A stretch of DNA of 64,000 nt from Aeriscardovia sp. (lineage in GTDB: Bacteria > Actinomycetota > Actinomycetes > Actinomycetales > Bifidobacteriaceae): NCBI GenBank assembly GCA_017965665.1, contig JAGCPN010000008.1, positions 1-64,000 on the forward strand, read 5' to 3'. The translations under genes and the position numbers were made by a program. Below, one piece after another: positions 24,542 through 58,262 of this stretch. Numbering within the stretch: the stretch's first letter is position 1; the number at the start of each line of letters is the position of its first letter. The notes beneath the pieces are model-generated. The model worked only from the letters and a program-made list of their open reading frames with translations. It did not search any database and was not told where the DNA came from.

Positions 24542-27052
24542 TTAATTTCCTATTTCTTCAAACGGGACAAAGCGGTAGTTGGAAAAGACGGCCTGCCCCT
24601 CGGCGAGGGATGCGGCGCAGTCGAGGTCGGCGCAGATGGACCAGTCCAAATCCCCGTCCCCGTCTTTTATGATCTGCCTGCAGCGCCAAAAGCCGTCCAG
24701 AGAGGCCGTGGATTCCACTGAAAAGTACTTTTCGCTCCTCGCATCCTGGGAGGTGTCTGCAGATTCGTGATCCGAATAGAACCTGTCCAGGGCCTCGTCC
24801 CAAGCGCGGACCCCCCAGCCCCAGCGCGCGTCCATATCCCCCAGCTCTTCAAACCTGTCCAAGGCTATGAGCTCTGCGCGCCTGAAGAGGGCGTTTCGGG
24901 CCATGAGCACCAGGCCCCGCCTCTCTTCCATCCAGTCCTTTTCTTCAGGCTCCTCTTGGGGCCCTTCCTGCTCATGGGCGAGGTTTCCTTCCCTGGCCCA
25001 CTCGTCCAGAAGGCTGGAATCCACCCCGTCTATCAAAAGCCCCAGCCACGAAGTTATCTCGGCCAGGTGGGGCGTGTAGTACTCGTCGGGCACGGTGTGA
25101 GCCAATACCTTCCACGCATCCGAAAGGTACCTGAGCAATATCCCCTCCACCCTTGCCAAGGCGTAGCGCGAGACGTACTCGTTGAAGTTGGAGAAGGTCT
25201 CTATCATGTCCCTGAGGATAGACTTGGGGCTCAGGGCGTAGTCTCCGGCCCAGGGCATCTCCCTCTTGTACTCTTCAAAGCTCTCTTCCAGCTCGCTTTC
25301 CAGGGGCCTGGGATAGGAGATGTCCTCAATTTTTTCCATCCTCTCCTCCCATTCGATTCCCTCCGCCTTCATCTCCGCTATGGCTTTGTCCCTGGCGGCC
25401 CGCTCCTGAGCCCGAAGGATGGGGTCGGGATCTTCGAGGATGGACTCTATTACGGAAATCAAATCGAGCTCATAAGAGGGAGAATCCCTGTTTAAGAGGG
25501 GGAAGGCGGAAAAGAGGAAGGGTGAGAGGGGCTCGTTTAAAGCGAAGTTGTCCGGAACGTCGATCGTAGTCGAGTAATCCCCGTCGTTTGACAGCGTTAT
25601 GACCCCGCTCTCTATCAGGGCGGAAAAAATGTCGTCGGTTTGGGAAAGCAGCCTGCTTTTTTGAAGCTCCGTCTGCGCGGAGGCTTCTATAAGTTCGGCC
25701 AGCCGCCCCTTGGCGTCCCCTCCCTGGACCACTTCCGCCAGTGCCATAGAGTGGCTAACTTTCAAATGGGCGACGAGAGTCTCGGAAGGGGATGAGGCGA
25801 GCTTTTCGAAAGTATTTTTGTCCCAGCTGGGCCCTGAGGAACTCTTCGGTAAAGCTTTCTTTTTCTTCTTGCCGTCCTTTTCCCTGGCCTCTATCTCTTC
25901 TGGAGGGGCCTGGCAGACTACGAGCCCCTCCTTGTCAAAGCCGCTGCGCCCGGCGCGGCCGGCGATCTGGCGAAATTCGCGCACCTTCAGCCGCCTGTCT
26001 TTGACCCCGTCCCACTTGACAAGGGAAGTGAAGACAACTGTGTGGATGGGCACGTTGATCCCAACTCCGAGGGTGTCGGTTCCGCAGATTAGAGGAAGTT
26101 TTCCACTCTGGGCGAGCTGCTCGACGAGGCGCCGGTACCTGGGGAGCATTCCGGCGTGGTGCACCCCCACGCCTGACGACAGCAGGCGCTTTAGGGTCTT
26201 TCCGAAGGCCGTGGTGAATTTCTCCCCCTTTATCGCCTCTTTCACTTCCTCCCGTTTCTCTTTCGACACTATCCCGAAATTCACGAGGGATTCTGCGTCC
26301 CTCAGCGCGGCCTCTTGGGAAGTGTGGACGATGTAGACGGGATCCAGGCCTTTGGAAACCAGGTCCTGCGCGATCTTCTGAATGGGATCGGCCTCATAGT
26401 CATACTCTAACGGCACGGGCCTGGGGGCGTCCCCGATGTACTCTACCTCCCTCGATGTCCTGCGGCGCAGGGTCGAAATTATCGACGAAGGATCTCCCAA
26501 AGTGGCGCTCATCAGGAGGAACTGGGAGTCGGGCATGTCGAGGAGGGGGACCTGCCAGGCCCAGCCACGCTGGGCGTCCCCGTAGTAGTGCGCCTCGTCC
26601 ATGATGATGCAGCAGTTTCCCCGGGCCTGGCCCCTCAAGGACTGGTTGGCCAGGATTTCAGCCGTGCAAAAGATTATCGGCGCCCCAGGGTCGATGGAAG
26701 TGTCTCCGGTGAGCATTCCCACAAAGCCCTTGCCGAAAATCGAGAGCCCCTCGAAAAACTTTTCGTTTACAAGGGCTTTTATCGGAGCGGTATAGTATGC
26801 CCTGCGCCCCTGGCAGAGGGCCTGGAACATAAAGCCGTAGGCCACGAGGGACTTGCCGGATCCGGTGGGGGTGGTGAGGAGCAGGTGGGAATCGGAAAAA
26901 AGAGCGATCAGGGCCCTCTCCTGATGATCCCAGGGGGCCTTGCCCCCCATCTTCACCCACTCGAGGTACCTGTCTAAAATCTCCTCTTCGTCGAACGGCT
27001 CTCCCTTTAAGGGCAGAAAGTAGGAGAGCTTTTCGGCCTCACCGCTCGTAAT
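24542..27052 (-). CDS. DExH-box RNA/DNA helicase with C-terminal DUF3516-like region
   Basis: Large superfamily 2 helicase of the Ski2/Mtr4-like actinobacterial type. Walker A is TPTGSGKS, the DEAH box [11 protein letters not shown], motif III LMSATLG and motif [12 protein letters not shown]. The C-terminal half lacks catalytic motifs and resembles the DUF3516 region. The first standard start codon in frame is GTG at 26956, which cuts off a conserved N-terminal helix: the upstream codons encode [21 protein letters not shown], matching family members. Continuing upstream there is no ATG, GTG or TTG, only an ATT at 27052 with GGAAGGAAG upstream, overlapping the end of aspS. I report the ATT start. 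The strand is shared with aspS-hisS. Confidence 0.82.
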
Positions 27053-28820
27053 CTACCCCGGCTTCCTTCCGCTGCAGTTCTGTAATGGCAGAAGGGGCCC
27101 CGGTAAGAAGATCTTTTCCGGCTCCGAACTTCGGGAAGGCTATGACCTCCCTTATGGTGTCTTTTCCGGTCAAAAGCTCCACACACCTGTCCCATCCGAA
27201 GGCGATCCCGGCGCAGGGAGGTGTGCCGTATTTTAGGGCCTCCAGAAGGAACCCGAACTTCTCTTCGGCCTCCTTCTGGCTTATGCCGAGAACTTTGAAG
27301 ACGCGTTCCTGCACCTTTTGATCGTGAATCCTGACAGATCCCCCGCCGATTTCGTTTCCGTTGCACACCATGTCGTAGGCGTCGGAGAGGACGGAGCCCG
27401 GATCCTTGTCGAAAGTGTCCAAAAACTCCTCTTTGGGCATGGTGAAGGGATGGTGCTCGCTGGTCCACATCCCTTCACCTACCGACACGTCCCCTTCGCT
27501 TTTGGCCTCGCTGGCCTTCTTGAAGAGGGGGAAGTCGGTGACCCAGAGGAACTTGTACTCGGCAGGATCGAACATGTGGCACCTCTTGGCAATTTCGAGC
27601 CTCACGGCGCCCAGGAGCTTTTGGCTGCTCCTCTTCTCGCCCGCGGCGAAGAACAGGGCGTCGCCGTCTTTGGCCCCGGATGCCTGCATTATGCCCCGCC
27701 TCTCCTCTTCGGAGATGTTTTTGGCCACGGGTCCCAGGAGCTCCCCGTCCCTGAAGACTATGTAAGCCAGGCCCTTGGCGCCCTTCTGCTTGGCCCAGTC
27801 CTGCCAGGCGTCGAACTGGCGGCGGGGAAGCTGCGCCCCTCCCGGGTAGATCACGGCTCCGACGTAGGGGGCCTGGAAGACCCTGAAGGGGGTGGAGGCG
27901 AAGAAGGAGGTGAGGTCTTTTAGCTTGTTTTCGAAGCGGATGTCGGGCTTGTCGGATCCGTACTCGTCCATCGCCCTGTGCCAGGGGAGCTGCTCTAGGG
28001 TCCCGATATCTATTCCGCCTACGGCCCACACCTGCCTCATCACGGCCTCGGCCATGGCCATCACGTCCTCTTTTCCGGCGTATCCCATCTCGATGTCGAG
28101 CTGGGTGAACTCGGGCTGGCGGTCCGCCCTGAAGTCCTCGTCCCTGTAGCACCTGGCAAACTGGTAGTACCTCTCTATCCCGCCTATCATGAGCAGCTGC
28201 TTTAAAAGCTGGGGAGACTGGGGGAGGGCGTACCAGTTTCCGGGAGACAGCCTGGCCGGCACGAGAAAGTCCCTGGCGCCCTCGGGCGTGGACTTTATCA
28301 AAGTCGGGGTCTCAACTTCCATAAATCCCATGGAATCGAGCGCCTTTCTGGCGGCTTTTGCCATGTCGGAGCGGGTCTGGAGCACCCTGTGCATGGCTCC
28401 TCGGCGAAGGTCCAAATACCTGTAGCGAAGCCTTGTCTCCTCGGAGGGAAGGTTTAACTCTCCGCTGTTTTCCAGAGAAGTGGAGACCTGGAACGGGAGG
28501 GGGGCGGCTTCGGAGATGACTGCGATCCTGCTCGCCTCTACCTCTACGTCCCCGTTGGAGAGCTTGGAGTTTTCCTCCCCTTCGGGCCTCTTTCTGACCT
28601 TGCCCTCCACCTGGATCACGTCTTCCGCCTTCAGGCCCCTGGCCTGCTTTTCATCGTTTATGACCACCTGCACCAGGCCGGAAGCATCCCTCAGGTCTAT
28701 AAACGTCACTCCTCCGTGGTCGCGGATTCTGTCCACCCAGCCTACAAGCTGCACTTCGGATCCGATCCGGGTCCCGTCGATTTCGCCCACCGAATGCGAG
28801 CGGTAATGGGTACAAGTCAC
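27039..28820 (-). CDS. aspS: Aspartyl-tRNA synthetase
   Basis: Class II synthetase that charges tRNA-Asp. It has an N-terminal OB-fold anticodon-binding domain ([20 protein letters not shown]), motif 2 ([22 protein letters not shown]), the bacterial GAD insert in the middle and motif 3 near the end ([15 protein letters not shown]). The length of 593 aa is standard for the bacterial form. A GTG start is used with GAGAGGAAGAG just upstream. It follows hisS by 16 nt on the same strand, a common bacterial pair, and its end overlaps the likely start of the helicase gene. Confidence 0.97.
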
Positions 28821-38436: not shown

Positions 38437-39534
38437 TTATTGTGGAATAACTACGTAATTTGAGGATGATTTCAGGATGGGAATGGTGCTGGCCATCCAA
38501 GGAAATACCCAGGCAAATAACAGTGCAATAATGCACAGCAGGGCGAGGATGAGAAGGACCCACCGCACAGCCTTTACTCCCGGATTGATCCATCGGAGCG
38601 CAGAGTAGATGCTGTAGGGCTTGCTCCTCTTGCCCGTCGCATCCCTGCGCATGCTGGGCCACCTCCACGTGATGGCTGCGGCGATGAAAACCACGAGCCA
38701 GGCTGCCAAAAGGAAATAGAAAATGGAGCTGACGGGAGGAATGGCCGCAGTCCAGCTGTTAAAGGCCGCCGGGAAAGTAATTTTGCCCCCTGATCCCTCC
38801 TGGGCCAGGGCAGCGGGTATCCCGTCTTTTACGTACGCCCAGTACTTAAACTTTGCATATACGATCCATCGATGGGTCGGAATGCCGTAGCGCGGAGTGC
38901 AGGTCGTCAAAGTCATGAGGCGCTCCGTGGGAACGGCTCCGGGCTGGTTGGGGACGGGATCGATGACGCCAGTCTGGGAAGGCGTCACTATCTGATAACT
39001 CTGATAGTCGTAGACGTACCAGTACCTGGTAGTGCGGATTATGATCTCGTCTCCGGATTTAAAATTGCTCACATCCCCCAGCGGGGCACCATAGCCCTCC
39101 CTGTGTCCGGCCAAGGCGACATTTCCGACGGCGCCGAACATAGGGGTCGATTCGTAGTGCCCCAAGCCGTGTCTGTCGAGCTGCACGAGGCTGGTTCCCT
39201 GGACTATCAGTCTTTTATACTGCGATCCGAAGCAGGGAATATAGATTTCCCCCAAAATCGCCCCCGGAGTTTTGAGGTTCGGAAGGACGGGAGGGGCGCC
39301 GGAGGCGGGGCTGGCTATTTCATAACCTCCCGCTCCACTTGCGGGGGTCTGCCAGCTGACGGTGTCAAACTCCTGGGTCTGGGTCCTTTGGGAAATTATT
39401 CCGGTCCAGCCTATCTGCCAAATGGCATAGAGGATACACAAAACGGCCAGGGTGATGAGGATTTCCCCTATCGCCCCGATTGCGGTAAAAACCTTCTTCC
39501 TCTTTCCACGATGGGTCGTGGCTTTAGCCTTAAT
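38437..39534 (-). CDS. Class E sortase with C-terminal membrane extension
   Basis: Membrane transpeptidase that should cleave an LPxTG-like signal and attach proteins to the wall or build pili. The catalytic His is in ALAGHREG, the Cys in TLTTCTP and the Arg in THRWIVYA, the class E arrangement. Unusually, about 120 residues follow, with two more hydrophobic helices (SSIFYFLLAAWLVVFIA and WVLLILALLCIIALLFAW). The first TTG in frame (39441) would cut the N-terminal membrane anchor. The only upstream candidate is ATT at 39534, with GGAGG 6 nt before it, giving KAKATTHRGKRKK then the hydrophobic anchor. I therefore report a 365-aa product with an AUU start. Confidence 0.85.
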   Translation of the reverse strand: MKAKATTHRGKRKKVFTAIGAIGEILITLAVLCILYAIWQIGWTGIISQRTQTQEFDTVSWQTPASGAGGYEIASPASGAPPVLPNLKTPGAILGEIYIPCFGSQYKRLIVQGTSLVQLDRHGLGHYESTPMFGAVGNVALAGHREGYGAPLGDVSNFKSGDEIIIRTTRYWYVYDYQSYQIVTPSQTGVIDPVPNQPGAVPTERLMTLTTCTPRYGIPTHRWIVYAKFKYWAYVKDGIPAALAQEGSGGKITFPAAFNSWTAAIPPVSSIFYFLLAAWLVVFIAAAITWRWPSMRRDATGKRSKPYSIYSALRWINPGVKAVRWVLLILALLCIIALLFAWVFPWMASTIPILKSSSNYVVIPQ

Positions 39535-39572
39535 GTTTTGCCTCCGTTACAATCGACACGAGTTCCATTCTA

Positions 39573-39620: not shown

Positions 39621-40007
39621 ATGGAAGACGAGGAAGAGGCCAGGGAAAAGGAAGCCGAAACCCCCGAGGCCGAAAAAAAGGAAGAAGGCAGCCCGGAGTT
39701 TGACAGGGTCAACGCCCTTCTCCATCAAGACGCTTCTTCGCAGGACGTGCCCGCAAGCATCAGAAGGCTTATGGAACGTCAGGAGGATAACGACAAAAGA
39801 ATCAAGAAGGCGATAAAAAAGACCAAGACCAACCCCAAGTGGTTTGTGCCGGTCTTTGCCGCGCTCCTCGTCATAGGCCTGGCCTGGGTGGTGGTGAACT
39901 ACGTCACTTCCGGACAATACCCCATTCCGGGAATTAGGAATTGGAACCTGCTGATAGGTTTCGGGCTCATGCTAATCGGGTTCGTCATGACCATGTGGTG
40001 GAAATAG
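39621..40007 (+). CDS. crgA: Cell division protein CrgA
   Basis: Small actinobacterial divisome membrane protein that interacts with FtsZ, FtsQ and the wall synthesis machinery (established in Mycobacterium and Streptomyces). It is 128 aa. An acidic, disordered N-terminus of about 70 residues, longer than in most relatives, precedes two transmembrane helices (WFVPVFAALLVIGLAWVV and LLIGFGLMLIGFVMTMWW) joined by the typical extracellular NYVTSGQYPIPGIRNWN loop. The ATG is preceded by AGGAGG. It is divergent from the sortase and starts a run of + strand envelope genes. Confidence 0.93.
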   Translation: MEDEEEAREKEAETPEAEKKEEGSPEFDRVNALLHQDASSQDVPASIRRLMERQEDNDKRIKKAIKKTKTNPKWFVPVFAALLVIGLAWVVVNYVTSGQYPIPGIRNWNLLIGFGLMLIGFVMTMWWK

Positions 40008-51591: not shown

Positions 51592-51615
51592 ACGCTGCCG
51601 AAAAAAGGAGGAGCA

Positions 51616-52620
51616 ATTTTTAACCCGCGACTGAACTGGCACAAAGATGAGCGCAAAGAGAGCCTCCCGGGAAGCGACGAGGACATAGATCTGTCCTCCT
51701 TCGAAGAACCTGAGGAAGAAGAGGCGGAAGAGGAAAAGATGCAGGCGCCGGCCTGCGAGCCGGACGCGCCCACCTCCCTCATTCCCATCCCCAGGGCCGT
51801 GCAGGGGAAGGCTTCGCCGAAAAATCCTCTGAAAGGATCCCTTGCGCCCGATTCCTCCCTTCCCCATTTCGCCTCCGCCACCTCCCCCGACTACTTTGCA
51901 CCCAAAATCCGCGAGGAACAGAAATTCGATGAGGAAAAACCGAAAATGTACGGCAAGTTCCTCGCTCTCCTCCTCCTCATTCCCATTTTCTTCCTCTCCA
52001 ACGCCGTTCCGATGGAAGGGATGACAGTCTCCATAATCCTGTACGCCGCATTTTACCTTTACGGCTACATCCTCGACGTCCAGGAGCTGAGGCGCCGGCG
52101 CGGCCGCAGGGCCCTGAACTGGTTTGAAGTGTCTCTCAGATCGGTCTGGTGGACGGTGAAGATACTCGTGCGCCTCATCCCCATAGCCGCCGTGTGGTTT
52201 TCAGGGGACCTCCTTTTAAACTGGCTTCTGGGCTTCCACTACCCCTCCATCGAAGCGGCCTTTTTCGGCCTCAAGTGGGAGATGAAGTTCGTCAATTTCC
52301 CCCCCCATTCCTGGGGAGGCCTCGTCTTGGGGCTATGGGCCCTCCTCTGCTGGCTCGCCCTCATCTTTTCGCGCTTCGGCACCAAAAGCGCGGACGTGGG
52401 GTTTAGATGCGCCTACAGATCGATCTACAGGGGGGTGCGGCGCATAAAGGACGAAGAAAGCGCGGGAACCGTAAACCGGGACGCGTATCTCCATCCCGGT
52501 TCAGCTAGATGTGGAATAATTTTGCTTATACTCCTGTTCGCCTTCGCTTTGGCAAGTTTGACCGTGTACCTTGCGCTGGGGGCGTTGGACTGGGGGCCAG
52601 TATTTATCGCCCGCCTGTAG
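51616..52620 (+). CDS. Multi-pass membrane protein with acidic N-terminus, unknown
   Basis: About 334 aa. The N-terminal third is acidic, proline-rich and soluble. It is followed by about five transmembrane segments, such as FLALLLLIPIFFLSNA, TVSIILYAAFYLYGYIL, LVLGLWALLCWLALIF and CGIILLILLFAFALASLTVYLALG. The first standard start is ATG at 51739. However, 41 in-frame codons with coding-like composition lie upstream, beginning with ATT at 51616, where AAAGGAGG ends 4 nt before. I report the ATT start. It lies between a Ser/Thr kinase and a DsbA-like protein and could be a kinase substrate. No family is recognised. Confidence 0.65.
   Translation: MFNPRLNWHKDERKESLPGSDEDIDLSSFEEPEEEEAEEEKMQAPACEPDAPTSLIPIPRAVQGKASPKNPLKGSLAPDSSLPHFASATSPDYFAPKIREEQKFDEEKPKMYGKFLALLLLIPIFFLSNAVPMEGMTVSIILYAAFYLYGYILDVQELRRRRGRRALNWFEVSLRSVWWTVKILVRLIPIAAVWFSGDLLLNWLLGFHYPSIEAAFFGLKWEMKFVNFPPHSWGGLVLGLWALLCWLALIFSRFGTKSADVGFRCAYRSIYRGVRRIKDEESAGTVNRDAYLHPGSARCGIILLILLFAFALASLTVYLALGALDWGPVFIARL

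Positions 52621-56540: not shown

Positions 56541-58262
<1,722 letters not shown>

Follow-up and report, generated by a model that had tools for sequence, protein, structure and literature searches.

Where does translation of this class E sortase gene begin, and if it begins at AUU, what keeps that codon in place? The features concerned lie in the window, by which we mean the whole 64,000-nucleotide stretch of Aeriscardovia DNA that was analysed:

38437..39534, minus strand: class E sortase coding sequence read from ATT, 365 codons plus stop (PF04203, NF033747)
39532..39534, minus strand: ATT (AUU), putative start codon, the same in 7/7 genomes
39541..39545, minus strand: GGAGG Shine-Dalgarno, kept in 7/7 genomes, spacing 6 (7 in G006)
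39547..39549, minus strand: in-frame TAA upstream of the ATT, closing the frame
39439..39441, minus strand: TTG, earliest conventional start codon, rejected as start
39621..40007, plus strand: crgA, divergent neighbour, with ATG behind AAGGAGGT

The layout that the first-pass annotation had described proved exact. The order on the minus strand is TAA CGGAGGCAAAAC ATT AAG GCT AAA GCC ACG, with the in-frame TAA at 39549, six bases from GGAGG to the ATT at 39534, and 31 open codons from there to the TTG at 39441, the first ATG, GTG or TTG of the frame. These 31 codons translate as KAKATTHRGKRKK and a hydrophobic anchor. The protein so read has a basic N-terminus, the anchor, the sortase domain (PF04203 at residues 97-228, E 1.6e-26) and C-terminal hydrophobic segments, and it matches the NF033747 class_E_sortase profile with 212.5 bits against a cut-off of 160. 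Reading the translation by eye, we found the active-site His, Cys (TLTTC) and Arg in AGHREG, TLTTCTPRYG and THRWIVYAK, which we take to be the catalytic residues.

Conservation of the probable sortase start

The window's genome, an assembly of 785 kb in 8 contigs that is nominally 99.85% complete, was compared with six congeners placed in the same genus by genome search, giving seven genomes. All seven sequences are metagenome assemblies; six are abomasum MAGs of water buffalo, yak and goat, each entered as a separate isolate. Alignment of homologues, as the first-pass annotation had proposed, revealed ATT behind a conserved GGAGG in 6/6 congeners tested (7/7 with the window's genome), and in none of the six is there an in-frame ATG, GTG or TTG closely upstream of it. 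In G006 no nearby stop precedes the ATT, yet the frame holds no conventional start back to the upstream TGA. Within the sortase of the seven genomes a single codon is kept in just 2 of the 25 invariant-isoleucine columns, both ATA, and in just 20 of the 263 invariant-residue columns; the invariance of a start codon is by itself only moderately improbable, with a chance of ~0.08 for the sortase and a joint chance of ~0.003 for three genes. By its codon substitutions between congeners, the sequence preceding TTG 39441 scores strongly as coding (log-likelihood gain 40.2), and the same score placed the coding boundary of the sortase at the Shine-Dalgarno and ATT. Together, these comparisons put the signal above chance and bear out the proposed ATT start, and the AUU at 39534 is very probably the working, weak start of the sortase.

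Could TTG 39441 be the start instead, or could ribosomes begin upstream in another frame and then shift into this one? The TTG is the earliest conventional in-frame codon of the window's gene, but it is CTG or TTA in 5/6 congeners and has no Shine-Dalgarno match, and in G004 (L003) the earliest conventional in-frame codon lies 92 codons in. A protein begun at the TTG would moreover lack the basic residues and some of the anchor, and the coding signal begins before it, at the Shine-Dalgarno and ATT; we consider a start elsewhere very unlikely. That every sequence is a metagenome assembly speaks for an ATG misread as ATT by sequencing or assembly error. The chance of such an error is nevertheless negligible: the seven assemblies, six of them recorded as separate isolates, are unlike each other at the majority of synonymous sites and yet share the ATT. 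Given that ATT and GGAGG recur in every congener and the TTG does not, sequencing error and the TTG start, both raised at first pass as possible refutations, are effectively excluded by the aligned sequences.

In the wider family the sortase N-terminus falls in the same region and has conventional codons available there, GTG or ATG; a more distant relative, G029, has GTG with a 6-base Shine-Dalgarno at -44, compared with -35 for the ATT. The ATT therefore appears, from this alignment, to be derived in the present clade.

Candidate non-canonical starts elsewhere in the genome

Two more genes of the window had been named at first pass as starting with ATT, at 51616 and 27052. The features at these sites are:

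51616..52620, plus strand: membrane-protein coding sequence read from ATT 51616-51618, 334 codons plus stop, no known family
51607..51611, plus strand: GGAGG Shine-Dalgarno, 4 nt before ATT 51616, kept in 7/7 genomes
24542..27052, minus strand: DEAD-box/DUF3516 helicase coding sequence, overlapping the end of aspS
27039..28820, minus strand: upstream gene, read as aspS from sequence, whose last codons overlap and constrain site 27052

The first of these was borne out, with ATT in 7/7 genomes behind GGAGGAGC[A/G]. At 27052 the claim stood in part: the helicase frame has no canonical start upstream of 26956, and some non-canonical start is needed, but the ATT overlaps aspS, is replaced by ACT in G004 (ATT in 6/7 genomes) and has no perfect GGAGG. 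Because the site overlaps the end of aspS, where GAT and GAC are synonymous in the aspS frame, the helicase could start at ATT, at ACG 27049 or at a reinitiation site; from the alignment the start is probably ATT 27052, or else ACG 27049. Elsewhere in the window, an Rfam 5' ureB sRNA match (83 bits; 57813-58109, plus strand) lies antisense to a large ORF at 56541-58262, which we take to be urease alpha; the match likely reflects coding-sequence homology rather than a small RNA.

The search was extended with a log-likelihood scan of codon substitutions over a 57% sample of the genome, comprising 327 testable genes, and with a comparison of orthologues. A plain list of ORFs with no canonical start close to the BLAST boundary was set aside in favour of the codon-substitution score, since intergenic DNA that is conserved lengthens alignments and made the list too noisy. 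Many of the flagged boundaries (crgA, 45866, 30312 and others) were rejected on inspection as N-termini that evolve fast and have a good ATG ahead of them, and some further ones as antisense ORFs. An MFS efflux-type transporter has ATC in the window's genome and ATT in the six congeners, with a GGAGG/GGAG-type Shine-Dalgarno (L054 17323, plus strand; L170-L175). A Mbeg1-like protein gene appears to start with ACG, kept in 6/6 congeners having the gene (L051 ~5483, minus strand; L184-L188), with a conserved in-frame stop two codons before it and the leader (A/G)GAGGTAT(A/G)AAAA. The comparison of orthologues, rather than the score, yielded a gene that we read from its sequence as AbiEi-like, whose ATA corresponds to an ATG in G005, the two leaders being identical apart from this (L047 6842, minus strand; L200).

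Counting cases other than infC, we found six in the 327 tested genes (~2%), with the codons AUU, AUC, AUA and ACG; repeated use of non-canonical starts by this lineage, which the first-pass annotation had suggested for AUU, is supported by this result. ATG, GTG and TTG starts remain dominant, with 265 assigned genes. A Shine-Dalgarno match of at least 5 accompanies 6/6 non-canonical cases compared with 99/265 conventional starts (p = 0.003), an enrichment that is weak and partly circular because some of the codons were picked with the help of the Shine-Dalgarno. As a side observation, no conventional codon close to the conserved N-terminus of a tmk-like (thymidylate kinase) gene (L048 ~8620, minus strand) is plausible as its start, the sole upstream candidate being a TTG that precedes the FIALEGGDG motif by 20 codons; a pattern search for a congener counterpart found none to compare.

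In a Bifidobacterium control pair, the scan flagged infC unprompted, which served as a positive control, and besides infC it gave 1 case in 96 (a pgsA-like gene, G011). A metallo-beta-lactamase-fold gene of the same control genome (L130 2670, plus strand) with an in-frame TAG was set aside as a probable nonsense pseudogene. The difference between 6/327 and 1/96, in a control that is small and more diverged, is not significant (Fisher p = 1.0); the clade may be enriched in non-canonical starts. For annotation, gene callers based on ATG, GTG and TTG would probably truncate such proteins or misplace their starts, and a miscalled start here would cut off part of the sortase membrane anchor. Comparison of codon substitutions between congeners, which takes no experiment, could be applied to other lineages to catalogue starts of this kind.

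Persistence of AUU and the possible role of IF3

How would initiation at the sortase AUU proceed? Strong Shine-Dalgarno pairing would place the 30S subunit at the AUU, which the ordinary initiator fMet-tRNA (CAU) would read with a third-position mismatch, such that the protein would begin with fMet. IF3 would reject most of the AUU initiation complexes, and expression of the sortase would therefore be low and sensitive to the level of IF3, by analogy with other species. Selection favouring low, or IF3-dependent, production of a membrane enzyme would keep the AUU in place, or the codon would at least be stably compensated. The same scheme may apply to the 51616 membrane protein, the MFS transporter, the Mbeg1-like protein and probably the DUF3516 helicase, beside the classical infC.

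The reason why AUU persists is less certain than its use as a start, and here our reading overlaps with neutral or nearly neutral fixation, an account that concerns why the AUU is there and agrees with AUU as the start. A conventional start would have changed to ATT in the ancestor of the clade, and a strong Shine-Dalgarno would have compensated for it, with no regulatory role. The conventional starts of the wider family, the reduced genome of 785 kb and the switches between congeners, ATG/ATA in the AbiEi-like gene and ATT/ATC in the MFS gene, all fit such drift. Against it, a return from ATT to ATG needs one base and is seen in 0/7 genomes despite strongly diverged synonymous sites, an absence that points to maintenance, or at least good compensation, of the weak start. 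Fixation by drift is a serious contender, to which we give a substantial but minority share of our confidence.

Maintenance of a weak start may also reach beyond single genes. If the figure of ~2% of genes holds, a small group of genes could be tuned by the level of IF3; that the clade has expanded AUU, AUC, AUA and ACG initiation into a standing weak, IF3-sensitive set, including the conserved ACG, which IF3 levels tune as a small regulon, is a speculative extension that we regard as unlikely.

Still less probable, in our judgement, is a lineage with relaxed IF3 or looser start selection, in which near-cognate codons would serve well throughout the genome and accumulate freely by drift, the second of the two ideas in the first-pass annotation. 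In its favour stand the roughly six non-infC cases of several codon types in 327 genes, set against other groups, in which just one of 61,358 starts that were ancestrally AUG had switched to AUU, a count that used annotated starts and so misses such cases (PMC5622118). However, no alteration of IF3 or initiator tRNA throughout the clade was found. IF3 is well conserved and typical in the seven genomes save at one position in G003, and infC still opens with a rare codon, ATA in 7/7 genomes (ATC or ATT in other Bifidobacteriaceae), as in normal autoregulation. By inspection the initiator tRNA is normal, with a CAU anticodon, GGG/CCC in the anticodon stem and an unpaired C1-A72. The continued dominance of conventional starts and the control count, which does not differ significantly, also argue against a general relaxation. 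Given that initiator tRNA and IF3 are ordinary, relaxed IF3 discrimination is not indicated, and low-level or IF3-sensitive expression, the other first-pass idea, seems by analogy the better of the two.

The one divergent position, in the IF3 of G003 (L108), has Glu in place of the Ala of the others in the STSTALNLA segment, and such a change could be counted on the side of relaxed discrimination; it lies near the place of a fidelity mutation, A34T, known in Streptomyces. The 3' end of 16S rRNA is not in the assembly, no rRNA having been found there.

Relation to known non-canonical starts

The sortase AUU would be a further case alongside infC, cvfC1 and ccpN of S. aureus, pncA of Borrelia and sigR of Streptomyces. 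The AUU, AUC and AUA starts of infC in E. coli, Streptomyces and S. aureus serve autoregulation by IF3. The sortase resembles infC, which in this clade begins with ATA, in having a near-cognate start; unlike infC, it encodes no translation factor, and no autoregulatory loop is expected. Our literature search turned up no publication that deals with AUU starts in Bifidobacterium, nor one on a sortase that begins in this way.

As with the sortase, cvfC1 (AUU) and ccpN (AUA) of S. aureus have a non-canonical start conserved among congeners behind a strong Shine-Dalgarno (PMC13009471). Ribosome profiling and reporters support their starts, whereas the sortase start was deduced by comparing sequences; AUU and AUA starts with an extended Shine-Dalgarno in S. 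aureus give ~10% of AUG expression (PMC13009471). The sigR gene of Streptomyces is, like the sortase, actinobacterial and has a conserved non-canonical start behind a strong ribosome-binding site; its codon is GTC rather than AUU, the start is repressed by IF3, and its regulatory role was shown experimentally (PMC5472188). The pncA gene of Borrelia burgdorferi (BBE22) belongs to a different phylum, and its start was established by genetics, biochemistry and structure; there, as would be the case for the sortase, AUU opens a longer N-terminus, one that the database annotation omits and the protein needs (PMC13398362).
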